Below, piece after piece: positions 24,687 through 50,576 of a stretch of DNA of 64,000 nucleotides (positions within the stretch are counted from its first letter, which is position 1; each line of letters starts with the position of its first letter). The stretch lies in assembly GCF_014202975.1 (NCBI RefSeq), contig NZ_JACHHZ010000005.1:310001-374000 (forward strand), written 5' to 3'. The notes beneath the pieces were generated by a model. That model was not told where the DNA came from. It saw nothing but the letters and a program-made list of their open reading frames with translations, and did not search any database. The position numbers and the translations under genes are program-made. This DNA is from Povalibacter uvarum. GTDB lineage: Bacteria; Pseudomonadota; Gammaproteobacteria; Steroidobacterales; Steroidobacteraceae.

Positions 24687-25052
24687 TCACTGTCCCTTCG
24701 GATTCGGTCCGAAGCGATTGTCGCCGGGCGTGCTGTCCATGACGAAGAAGACGATGAGCACGATGACACCGATGAGCGGAACGAGCCCGATGAGGAGCCA
24801 CCAGCCGCTGCGATCCGTGTCGTGCAGGCGACGCACGCCGACCGCGATGCCCGGAATGAGTACGAGCAGCGTATAGATGCAGCCCAGCAGCCCGATGCCG
24901 TAAGTCATGTTTACGGTGCCCAGCATGCTGTCGACGATCGCGAGGACGATGCTTGCAATGAAGTTGAACAGGAAGAAAAACCAGTACTCCTTGCGCCGTG
25001 CCCGGCCGCTGAACACCGCGTACTTCTTCAGGACATCAAGATACCAGTTCAT
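24687..25052 (-). CDS. DUF805 family inner-membrane protein
   Basis: 121 residues from ATG 25052, with AGGGAGAG upstream. It contains the DUF805 signature KYAVFSGRARRKEYWFFFLFN, then VGVRRLHDTDRSGWWLLIGLVPLIG. Four transmembrane segments. Homologous to E. coli YhaH/YhaI; function unknown. Divergent from the MFS gene at 25268. Confidence 0.93.
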   Translation of the reverse strand: MNWYLDVLKKYAVFSGRARRKEYWFFFLFNFIASIVLAIVDSMLGTVNMTYGIGLLGCIYTLLVLIPGIAVGVRRLHDTDRSGWWLLIGLVPLIGVIVLIVFFVMDSTPGDNRFGPNPKGQ

Positions 25053-31279: not shown

Positions 31280-32158
31280 TTATTCCGTCTTGCCCTTTTC
31301 AGCAGCAGGCGCTGCAGCGGGCTTCTTGCGGTACTCGCCGTACATCAGTTCCTCGACGAACTCGACGCACTTGAACTGACCGAGCTGCGCATTCGGTTCG
31401 ACGCGGCGATACAGCGGCATGCTGATCTTCCACGGCCGCGTGAAGACATTGGGATCTTCGATCGTAGCTTCGTACAGCAGATGATCCGGACCGCGCTGCG
31501 TGTAGCGCTCCGTCACCTTCAGCTTGTCGCTGTGCCAGTTGCCGGCGCGATCGAACCAGGTCTGGTCGTTGAAGCCCGTCGCTTCGATGACCAGTGTGTC
31601 GCCTTCCCATTTGCCGGCGGACTGACCCATCCACGAGTCGGCGGGCGGCGGACCCGGATCTTTCATGTAGATGTTGCGGACGGCACCGGCGTACTCGTAA
31701 GCGAAGAACACGTGGTCCTTGCTCTGCACGATCTGGAAGGGATACGGCATGTACGTCGCGCGGGGGACGCCCGGCAGGTAGCACTTGATCTCGGGGTCGC
31801 TCGTGAGCCAGTTCTTCTGGTTCTCTTTCTTCTTCTCGAGCGCTTCGGGCTTGTACGGAATCGTGCCGCCTTCGACGACGCCGAGGCCGAAGGGCACGGA
31901 GCCGACGGCGCCGAGCGCGACGACCTGGGGAGCGGGCACCGGGACGAACTGGCCTGGAACCATCGCCATCGCAGCGCTCGCGGCATGCGGTTCGAGGTTG
32001 AAGTTCGCGCTGTTCATTGCCTGCCAGATGCCGTTCAGATCCGGCTTGCCATCGGGCAGTCGCGGACCTTTCGCCGGTGCATTCGCAGCAATCGCCGCCG
32101 AATGGATCACCGCAGCCGCAGCGGCTGCCAACAGGACGCGTGAGAATGCACTTCGCAT
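31280..32158 (-). CDS. exported DLxGIW-family protein, paralogue
   Basis: 292 residues. Signal peptide, then PRLPDGKPDLNGIWQAMN, GKWEGDTLVIEATGFNDQTWFD and ATIEDPNVFTRPW, the same blocks in the same order as the next gene. First gene of the DLxGIW-DLxGIW-DUF6152 operon. The C-terminus is Lys/Ala-rich. Its promoter should lie in 32159-32483, shared with the cytochrome gene. Function unknown. Confidence 0.8.
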   Translation of the reverse strand: MRSAFSRVLLAAAAAAVIHSAAIAANAPAKGPRLPDGKPDLNGIWQAMNSANFNLEPHAASAAMAMVPGQFVPVPAPQVVALGAVGSVPFGLGVVEGGTIPYKPEALEKKKENQKNWLTSDPEIKCYLPGVPRATYMPYPFQIVQSKDHVFFAYEYAGAVRNIYMKDPGPPPADSWMGQSAGKWEGDTLVIEATGFNDQTWFDRAGNWHSDKLKVTERYTQRGPDHLLYEATIEDPNVFTRPWKISMPLYRRVEPNAQLGQFKCVEFVEELMYGEYRKKPAAAPAAEKGKTE

Positions 32159-48650: not shown

Positions 48651-49079
48651 TTACGTCTGTGGTAGCGAGACGTGGCAATAGACGACCTGCCAGCGGCCGT
48701 TACGTTTCGCCCAGATGTCCGCGAAGCGCAGTGTCACCGCGAATGGTTTGCCGCCGCTCACGCCTTTGAGATGGACGAGTCCGCCCAGCACGGCGCCATC
48801 GCTCCAGATTTTCTCGACGGGTTCCAGGATTTTGAACGGCTCGATCTTGTAGCCCGGTGTCGTGTAGTCCGCGATGAGACCGGCCTTGTCCTGAACCGTG
48901 CCGCTGCTGTTCACGAGCGCGTAGTCGTCGGCGATCAGTCGTTCCAGCTCGGCCCGGTTGCCGTTGACCTGGGCTTCATCGTAGTCGTGCACCGCCTTGG
49001 CGAGATCGGCGGGCAGGTTGGCGGAGAACGCGGATGAGAACAGGCAGCAGGTGATCAGAGCGGCGGTCAGTCGAAGCAT
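48651..49079 (-). CDS. exported DUF4440/NTF2-like protein
   Basis: 142 residues with a signal peptide (MLRLTAALITCCLFSSAFSA). NTF2-like fold: VHDYDEAQVNGNRAELERLIADDYALVNSSGTV, then IWAKRNGRWQVVYCHVS at the end, typical of DUF4440. Substrate unknown. Single gene. Confidence 0.85.
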   Translation of the reverse strand: MLRLTAALITCCLFSSAFSANLPADLAKAVHDYDEAQVNGNRAELERLIADDYALVNSSGTVQDKAGLIADYTTPGYKIEPFKILEPVEKIWSDGAVLGGLVHLKGVSGGKPFAVTLRFADIWAKRNGRWQVVYCHVSLPQT

Positions 49080-49193: not shown

Positions 49194-49254
49194 GAGCTGT
49201 GAGCTATGAGCTATGAGCTATAGCTCATCGCTCGCTGCTCACAGCCTTCTGACA
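49194..49254. repeat. short tandem/palindromic repeat family E (GAGCTAT units)
   Basis: Three tandem GAGCTAT units at about 49200-49221, followed by AGCTCATCGCTCGCTGCTCACAGC. The whole forms an imperfect hairpin (GAGCTGTGAGC against GCTCACAGC). It lies between the DUF4440 start and the aromatic leader region. Confidence 0.6.
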
Positions 49255-49297
49255 GCCCCCGAACCCGCCAAAATTGCCTCCGGCCGGCGAGCTGTGC

Positions 49298-49303
49298 TAT
49301 CAA
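49298..49303 (+). promoter_or_regulatory. candidate extended -10 for the DAHP synthase leader
   Basis: TGCTATCAA at 49295-49303 fits an extended -10 (TGn TATCAA). TTGCCT at 49274 would be the -35 with an 18-nt spacer. Transcription would then begin at or next to the leader ATG at 49310. A weak AAGG is the only ribosome site upstream. Tentative. Confidence 0.35.
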
Positions 49304-49309
49304 GGCCTC

Positions 49310-49390
49310 ATGACCTGCGCGCGTCGCTATTGGTTCTGGTCCTACTACTACTTTCCGAGATCACTGGCGGAAGGACTGGGTTCGGCCTGA
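49310..49390 (+). CDS. aromatic leader peptide of the DAHP synthase attenuator
   Basis: A 26-codon frame that begins MTCARR and then reads YWFWSYYYF (codons 7-15), ending PRSLAEGLGSA and TGA. Eight of nine consecutive codons specify Tyr, Trp or Phe, far above chance, and the downstream gene is the first enzyme of aromatic synthesis. Ribosome stalling at these codons would report shortage of any of the three products. It is followed by an intrinsic terminator whose 5' arm can pair instead with part of this coding region. Confidence 0.85.
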   Translation: MTCARRYWFWSYYYFPRSLAEGLGSA

Positions 49391-49451
49391 AAGACGCAAA
49401 GTCACCTGAACACCCAAGAAACCGCCAGCCAAAAACTGGCGGTTTTTTTTT
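49364..49451 (+). promoter_or_regulatory. transcription attenuator (antiterminator/terminator)
   Basis: Segment 2 CTGGCGG (49364-49370), segment 3 CCGCCAG (49422-49428) and segment 4 CTGGCGG (49436-49442). Segment 3 pairs perfectly with either 2 (antiterminator) or 4 (terminator). The 3:4 hairpin (ACCGCCAG / CTGGCGGT) is followed by nine T (49443-49451). A ribosome stalled at the Tyr triplet (49343-49351) leaves segment 2 free; one reaching the stop codon at 49388 covers it. This is textbook geometry for amino-acid-controlled attenuation. Confidence 0.85.
49421..49451 (+). terminator. intrinsic terminator of the attenuator
   Basis: Eight-bp perfect stem ACCGCCAG / CTGGCGGT with a 7-nt CCAAAAA loop and a run of nine T. 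It lies 49 bp before the DAHP synthase start, inside the leader. A second T-run (49460-49467) follows. Confidence 0.9.
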
Positions 49452-49499
49452 GCCACGGTTTTTTTTGACCCAAGCCTGCCGTTGACGAGGGAGCCTGCT

Positions 49500-50576
49500 G
49501 TGAACGTCCGTACCGATGACCTGCGCATTCGCGATATCCGCGAGCTCACGACGCCCGAGGAGCTGATGCGCGAATTCGCCTGCACCGAAGAGGCATCCGC
49601 TGCCGTGTCCGCGGGCCGGACGGGAATGCAGCGCATCCTCCACGGTCAGGACGACAGGCTTGCAGTCGTCATCGGGCCCTGCTCGATTCACGACACGACG
49701 GCCGCTCTCGACTACGCCAGGCTGCTGCGCGAACAGCGCGAAAGATTCGCTGACACGCTCGAGATCATCATGCGTGTCTATTTCGAGAAGCCGCGCACGA
49801 CGGTGGGCTGGAAAGGTCTCATCAACGATCCGGATCTCGACGGCAGCTTCAACATCAACAAGGGACTGCGGCTCGCGCGTGGCGTGCTGCTCGACATCAA
49901 CCAGCTCGGCCTGCCCGCGGGTTGTGAGTTCCTCGATATGATCACGCCGCAATACATCGGTGACCTCGTTGCCTGGGGCGCAATCGGCGCGCGAACGACC
50001 GAGAGCCAGGTGCATCGCGAACTGGCTTCAGGTGTGTCGTGTCCTGTCGGGTTCAAGAACGGCACGGACGGCAACGTGAAGATCGCGATCGACGCCGTGC
50101 AGGCAGCGTCGCATCCGCATCATTTCCTGGCCGTCACCAAACTGGGGCGCAGCGCGATTGCATCGACGTCGGGCAACGCGGACTGTCACGTGATCCTTCG
50201 CGGCGGCAAGACGCCGAACTACGACGCAGCAAGTGTCGAGAGTGTCAGTGCGCAGTTGCAAGCGGCCGGACTCGATCAGCGCATCATGATCGACGTGAGC
50301 CACGGCAACAGCAGCAAGCGTCCCGAGAATCAGCCGCTCGTCGCGGCCGACATCGCATCGCAGATCGCCGGCGGCGAGCGTCGCATCGCCGGTGTGATGA
50401 TCGAGAGCCACCTCAAAGCGGGTCGCCAGGATCTCGTGCCTGGCAAAGCGCTCGCCTATGGTCAGAGCGTCACGGACGGATGCATCGACTGGGCGGCGTC
50501 CGTGGAAGTGCTGGAAACGCTGGCGAACGCGGTAGCGCAGCGTCGGCGACTCGACGTCTCCGCGGCGGTGGCCTGA
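49500..50576 (+). CDS. DAHP synthase (3-deoxy-7-phosphoheptulonate synthase), class I
   Basis: 358 residues from GTG 49500, chosen for GAGGGAG 7 nt upstream. It condenses phosphoenolpyruvate and erythrose 4-phosphate, the first step of the shikimate pathway. Class I AroF/G/H signatures: VVIGPCSIHD, VYFEKPRTTVGWKGLINDP, GARTTESQVHRELASG, PVGFKNGTDG and MIDVSHGNSSK. Which isozyme (Phe-, Tyr- or Trp-sensitive) cannot be told. Expression should be under the aromatic attenuator immediately upstream, on top of any feedback inhibition. Confidence 0.95.
   Translation: MNVRTDDLRIRDIRELTTPEELMREFACTEEASAAVSAGRTGMQRILHGQDDRLAVVIGPCSIHDTTAALDYARLLREQRERFADTLEIIMRVYFEKPRTTVGWKGLINDPDLDGSFNINKGLRLARGVLLDINQLGLPAGCEFLDMITPQYIGDLVAWGAIGARTTESQVHRELASGVSCPVGFKNGTDGNVKIAIDAVQAASHPHHFLAVTKLGRSAIASTSGNADCHVILRGGKTPNYDAASVESVSAQLQAAGLDQRIMIDVSHGNSSKRPENQPLVAADIASQIAGGERRIAGVMIESHLKAGRQDLVPGKALAYGQSVTDGCIDWAASVEVLETLANAVAQRRRLDVSAAVA

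Follow-up and report, generated by a model that had tools for sequence, protein, structure and literature searches.

The class I DAHP synthase gene aroG of Povalibacter uvarum is preceded, in the window considered here (the whole 64,000-nucleotide stretch of DNA that was analysed), by a short open reading frame crowded with codons for aromatic amino acids and by a terminator-like hairpin, and this arrangement raises the question of whether the leader controls transcription of the gene and, if so, which amino acids it senses. The product of the gene matches TIGR00034 with 529.5 bits against a cut-off of 173.2, and the best solved chains for it (1n8f, 1gg1 and 5cks) are DAHP synthases, two of these top three structure entries being named as Phe-regulated or Phe-sensitive; DAHP synthase is the entry point to the aromatic amino acids. 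We conclude that the element is very probably a ribosome-mediated transcription attenuator of aroG, and the original prediction of an aromatic attenuator in front of a DAHP synthase gene finds support in the joint conservation of leader and terminator and in the antiterminator folds described below. The features concerned are collected in Table 1.

Table 1. Elements of the aroG leader region, in window coordinates.
Feature	Position	Strand	Remarks
-35-like hexamer TTGCCT of the leader promoter	49274..49279	+	Pattern found in the window's group
Extended -10-like element TGC TATCAA	49295..49303	+	Ends 6 nt before the leader ATG
Leader peptide ORF MTCARRYWFWSYYYFPRSLAEGLGSA	49310..49390	+	26 codons, ATG at 49310; stop codon (49388-49390) included
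Control codons 7-15, Tyr Trp Phe Trp Ser Tyr Tyr Tyr Phe	49328..49354	+	
Antiterminator 5' arm CTGGCGG	49364..49370	+	Inside the leader ORF; pairing, fold and spacing computed
Proposed inner antiterminator helix, 5' arm TGGGTTCGG	49377..49385	+	From the fold of 49364-49428
Proposed inner antiterminator helix, 3' arm CTGAACACCCA	49406..49416	+	From the fold of 49364-49428
Terminator 5' arm	49418..49428	+	Its CCGCCAG (49422-49428) also partners the antiterminator arm
Terminator 3' arm and U tract	49436..49450	+	CTGGCGG at 49436-49442
Class I DAHP synthase gene aroG (AroG/AroF/AroH family), the regulated gene	49500..50576	+	Proposed GTG start at 49500

The leader frame and its run YWFWSYYYF, as first described, agree base for base with the sequence. 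This run is the sole stretch with eight aromatic residues out of nine in the six frames of the window, for which 60 first-order Markov sequences of the same size gave a mean expectation of 0.0, and the leader has the form known from attenuators, a short ORF carrying a run of codons for amino acids of the downstream pathway. One other frame of the window, on the minus strand near 24960-24986, has a run of seven aromatic residues in nine (YWFFFLFNF). A second aromatic run, at 31809-31838, was set aside because it lies antisense to a long ORF.

An intrinsic terminator lies between the leader ORF and the structural gene. The hairpin at 49418-49450 folds with -16.6 kcal/mol (z -5.4), a value matched by none of 200 shuffles; a simple scan for terminators missed it and listed an overlapping terminator-like site at 49437-49455. 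The three heptamers on which the proposed switch turns, one CCGCCAG and the CTGGCGG on either side of it, stand exactly where they had been placed, and CTGGCGG is present in 0.3% of 20,000 shuffles of the segment 49355-49421. By computed pairing and spacing, the antiterminator shares an arm with the terminator and is placed for control by a stalled or finishing ribosome, its own arm beginning 10 nt past the last base of the aromatic run. Folded as a whole, the leader does not surpass its shuffles (z -1.0, with 35 of 200 equally good), so that the evidence is carried by the specific hairpins and their conservation; a 1:2 protector-like pairing appears in this whole-leader fold, and the inner antiterminator helix of the window, taken alone, is at chance level (14 of 100 shuffles as good).

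In the mechanism that we propose, RNA polymerase would start at or beside the leader AUG and a ribosome would load on a probably leaderless message. Were charged tRNA-Tyr, tRNA-Trp or tRNA-Phe to run short, the ribosome would stall within codons 7-15; with ribosome footprints of the usual size, the RNA from 49364 onward would then be free or nearly so, and its CTGGCGG could pair with CCGCCAG to form an antiterminator, to which the inner helix perhaps adds. With the antiterminator formed the terminator would be absent and aroG transcribed. If all three amino acids were plentiful, the ribosome would reach the stop codon and cover approximately 49370-49400, the antiterminator would be blocked, and the shared arm would pair with 49436-49442 and end transcription at the U tract. 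The spacing logic is that of the trp attenuator, and a control-codon leader ORF followed by a mutually exclusive antiterminator and terminator is common to the trp attenuator, Sinorhizobium meliloti trpL and the aroG leader; the trp attenuator has Trp codons only and precedes trpE, whereas Phe, Trp and Tyr codons are mixed in the aroG leader.

Relatives of AroG were taken from two sources: 60 whole genomes, of which 25 had a match at E <= 1e-60, and genomes of named species, from which the best 80 of at least 595 were kept. The resulting 105 loci are nearest relatives and not a random sample, and 102 of them were usable, L015, L016 and L082 being left out because their upstream sequence is too short. 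The original prediction expected the leader peptide to be kept in related species, and an aromatic-rich leader with a terminator precedes aroG at 91 of the 102 usable loci, all 91 falling among the 94 loci with above about 60% AroG identity. In 89 cases a script recognised an aromatic leader with a GCGG terminator after it, and these 89 underlie the counts given below; two (L060 and L096) were added from an earlier scan. In the second of these, from a record titled Candidatus Burkholderia humilis, no stop codon interrupts the leader ORF ahead of the terminator, so that it reads through the hairpin over 48 codons, and the switch there may be decaying. The 11 usable loci without a leader are L018-L025, L058, L077 and L098; the first eight encode distant AroGs (49-54% identity), have no leader within 500 nt upstream, and may represent a differently controlled isozyme in genomes of the same order. 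We take the carriers to belong to the Alphaproteobacteria (Bradyrhizobium, Devosia, Mesorhizobium, Kaistia and Methylosinus), the Betaproteobacteria (Burkholderia, Achromobacter, Janthinobacterium and Massilia) and the gammaproteobacteria (Dyella, Rhodanobacter and Pseudoxanthomonas); L052, whose record bears the name Mycobacterium, was placed in the alphaproteobacterial group, since it looks like that type.

Of 64 non-redundant leaders, 32 went into a covariance model, which gave one strong match in the P. uvarum genome (96.8 bits, with 150 of 2013 first-look candidates scored), the next score, 19.6 bits, being the other strand of the same terminator. Among 369 genomes of the class, searched with this model, which would miss divergent leaders, eight matches reach 40 bits and seven of the eight are followed by an aroG whose product is 60-100% identical; matches below 40 bits are mostly terminators alone. 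The eighth (L121) has no AroG nearby and was taken as a chance terminator.

The pairing that makes the switch is likewise kept. A complement to the terminator 5' arm lies after the last aromatic codon and is equalled by at most 5% of 200 shuffles at 63 of 89 loci; the other 26 fail to beat shuffles at that level. The antiterminator stem is present in the minimum-energy fold of its segment at 87 of 89 loci, although cutting the segment at both arms favours the stem, and the median energy of this segment is -21.8 kcal/mol as against -16.7 for the terminator. The core GGCGG is also present, 3' of the aromatic run, in 83 of 89 leaders, and these counts speak for conservation of the 2:3 and 3:4 pairing envisaged at the outset. 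Over the 89 loci, the median distance from the start of the last aromatic codon to the antiterminator arm is 13 nt (range 5-23), and that from the end of the arm to the stop codon is 17 nt. The core is read in all three frames, in 76, three (L006, L007 and L044) and four (L014, L017, L053 and L103) leaders respectively, which argues that selection seems to act on the RNA pairing rather than on the leader peptide. Five leaders, four from Devosia and one from the Hyphomicrobiales (L042, L059, L061, L063 and L074), have CTGGCAG in place of CTGGCGG, which leaves them with weaker pairing or with pairing through other bases. Inside the antiterminator hairpin, the fold surpasses 95% of shuffles at only 17 of 89 loci, the window not among them, so that the inner helix of Table 1 is a proposal; by eye, an inner helix seems to be kept with different bases in the folds of the window and of L004. 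The 1:2 protector hairpin likewise exceeds 95% of shuffles at only 17 of 89 loci and finds no support above chance.

Classical covariation of the competing stems is weak. Both cores are present at 82 of 89 loci; among the five positions that flank them there, a single one co-varies significantly once duplicates are removed (P 0.005, the others 0.08-0.96), compared with three at P < 0.05 when duplicates are kept. RNAalifold, run on the window's group less L009, L012 and L014 (11 of 14 loci), recovered the outer stem only, with no compensatory pairs. The core hardly varies, which accounts for this weakness, and an arm with two pairing partners can hardly change, so that little covariation is expected and the pairing is supported mostly by conservation. 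In the covariation search proposed with the original prediction, leader and antiterminator prove conserved and compensatory changes weak.

Which amino acids the switch senses can be approached from the composition of the runs. Phe, Trp and Tyr codons occur together in 61 of 89 runs, Phe and Tyr alone in 26, and Phe and Trp alone in two. A pooled response to all three amino acids is likely. It is possible, but on balance doubtful, that the attenuator mainly senses one or two of them, Tyr or Phe, with the Trp codons incidental. The 28 runs with only two kinds of aromatic codon would fit such a restricted response, as would the composition of the window run (four Tyr codons against two Trp and two Phe) and the presence in the same genome of a separate leader at trpE (L144, G000:C2 near 485400, minus strand), which has three Trp codons (WWW) and a terminator and so provides Trp-specific control beside the mixed aroG leader. 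Incidental Trp codons are nonetheless difficult to reconcile with the occurrence of Trp within the run in 63 of 89 leaders, and with its share of leader residues (78 of 2183, or 3.6%), when Trp usually makes up roughly 1.3% of proteins. One switch reading three tRNAs would test how the ribosome integrates several charging signals.

Two observations go beyond the original prediction, a codon bias in the relatives and the probable leaderless start considered below. Phe is encoded by TTT at 239 of 312 positions in the 89 leaders (77%), whereas over the leading 1020 nt of the corresponding aroG matches the figure is 89 of 572 (16%), and the TTT fraction is higher in the leader than in aroG at 77 of the 80 loci with at least two leader Phe codons; the window leader, with one TTT and one TTC, lacks the bias. 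The shift for Tyr is smaller, TAT making up 119 of 220 codons in the leaders and 164 of 515 in aroG. Two explanations would each fit the TTT bias: slow wobble decoding as a means of sharpening the stall, and a need to keep the run free of structure. Codon choice in attenuation has been treated in theory (PMC1183508), and the UUU preference amounts to a natural experiment on it.

How the leader message begins is suggested by its promoter. A pattern TTGnnn-N18-TA(T/C)nnn, whose hexamers we take to be -35 and -10 motifs, is present at 12 of the 14 loci of the window's group (not L002 and L003) with 0.06 expected in shuffles, and the first in-frame ATG follows 6-10 nt after the end of its second hexamer, provided that for L006 and L014 the in-frame ATG just upstream of the script's choice is taken; a simple scan found no consensus promoter in the leader region of the window. 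After removal of duplicates, the ATG is preceded at a distance of 4-10 nt by a -10-like hexamer at 18 of 19 gammaproteobacterial loci (4.7 in shuffles), 19 of 22 alphaproteobacterial loci (3.4) and all five of Alcaligenaceae (1.8), as against one of 14 of Burkholderiaceae type (4.7), where the best -10-like position is 35-37 nt upstream, and four of 17 of Oxalobacteraceae type (6.4, no excess). These group labels were assigned in the present analysis, and seven of the 89 loci (L017, L053, L072, L081, L089, L101 and L103) are ungrouped. Shine-Dalgarno matches of at least 4 nt precede six of 89 leaders, compared with 14.7 in shuffles, and 66 of the 69 aroG genes with a recognised start; one of the six, the AAGG of the window leader, overlaps the -10 element and is not kept in its relatives. 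The promoter spacing, the one basis for this reading, indicates a probably leaderless message for the window's group, with its 5' end at or beside the AUG of the leader, and the spacing supports the same reading in the gamma, alpha and Alcaligenaceae groups though not in the Burkholderiaceae and Oxalobacteraceae types. A short inverted and partly tandem repeat, seen by eye at 49195-49246, lies just 5' of the leader promoter.

A leaderless start has been reported for S. meliloti trpL, the transcript of which begins at the leader AUG according to PMC7298713 and PMC10117765, and what is reported there is inferred for the aroG leader. The same system, as described there, supplies a precedent in rnTrpL and peTrpL for a leader that works chiefly through a product acting in trans, and termination at aroG would similarly release a leaderless small mRNA. 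We nevertheless consider it improbable that the aroG leader acts mainly through such an RNA of about 140 nt or its peptide, or by translational coupling, with control of termination secondary: the leader stop codon is 109 nt before aroG, aroG starts mostly have a Shine-Dalgarno match of their own, and the residues encoded by GGCGG change with the reading frame, which leaves no conserved function for the C-terminus of the peptide. Less probable still is a constitutive terminator, serving an upstream gene or as an insulator and with the leader ORF incidental, since the hairpin, although strong by itself, has a promoter-like element on one side and aroG on the other, the ORF next upstream (48651-49079) is on the opposite strand, and leader, terminator and GGCGG core are kept together before aroG in the proportions given above.

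Ribosome-mediated attenuation of aroG has to be set beside the systems already known. The mechanism and parts of the aroG leader are classical; its mixed codons, broad spread and probable leaderless start are unusual, although precedents exist for the mixing of codons as well as for a leaderless start. The pheA and pheST attenuators have aromatic control codons and the same switch logic, but they carry Phe codons only and precede genes other than aroG, and the ilvGMEDA attenuator has codons for several amino acids in a single leader, branched-chain and not aromatic. The contrast originally drawn with attenuators that respond mainly to one amino acid is softened by such multi-residue precedents as the ilv leaders and Corynebacterium glutamicum aroF. 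For the latter, the accessible text of PMC4046766 gives a putative attenuator with a Phe-Tyr-Phe leader, also a mixed aromatic peptide before a DAHP synthase gene, though in a different phylum and with only those residues named; the likeness is one of description alone. The uORFC-13-1 motif at Acholeplasma aroF (24 sequences; PMC8632094), again compared by description, is also a candidate uORF with one or more Phe codons and a terminator before a DAHP synthase gene, but in the part of that report available it is confined to Acholeplasma and Phe alone is named. Attenuation has likewise been suspected at aroF-tyrA, as a hypothesis for Escherichia coli (cited in PMC8632094 and PMC2659441) and as database attenuators at aroAIalpha_Y-tyrA in Vibrio (PMC1173090), the descriptions found in these sources containing no mixed aromatic leader. 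According to PMC5343134, aroF-tyrA is a target of TyrR or TrpR, and enteric DAHP synthase genes in general are TyrR or TrpR targets with feedback-inhibited products. Many of the relatives, those in Bradyrhizobium, Burkholderia, Achromobacter and Dyella among them, appear to rely on a leader peptide, which may act by itself or together with other regulation.

Neither the window nor any of the 13 loci tried, out of 105, matched an Rfam 15 family, whether a riboswitch or one of the known leaders (Trp, Phe, Leu, Thr and others). When the threshold was relaxed to E <= 10 for 49250-49520, no score exceeded 18.5 bits, below the gathering cut-offs of the leader families, with Phe_leader (RF01859) at 16.9 bits against a cut-off of 55. 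In the literature searched we found no description of a mixed-aromatic leader family at aroG, and the widespread attenuator family looks undescribed; an earlier account is possible in Vitreschak 2004 or Lopatovskaya 2010. A fuller combination of these points is tentative, and we think it somewhat more likely to fail in one part or another than to hold throughout: a widespread and undescribed family of the alpha-, beta- and gammaproteobacteria, often leaderless, that would deliver a pooled three-amino-acid signal to the first shikimate step, with wobble-read UUU sharpening the stalling and a leaderless small mRNA of about 140 nt possibly acting in trans.

Other aromatic genes of the genome were inspected by simple scan for an aromatic leader with a terminator. 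None was found upstream of the class II DAHP synthase (G000:C1:1215683-1216990) that the genome has beside the class I enzyme, or of a second PF04715 match, a prephenate dehydratase and two PF01409 matches. A second PF00793 match has a length consistent with KdsA, for which we take it. At trpE, a TTGACT-17-TAATAC element seen by eye ends 7 nt short of an upstream ATG in the leader's frame, and this spacing suggests that the trpE leader may also be leaderless.
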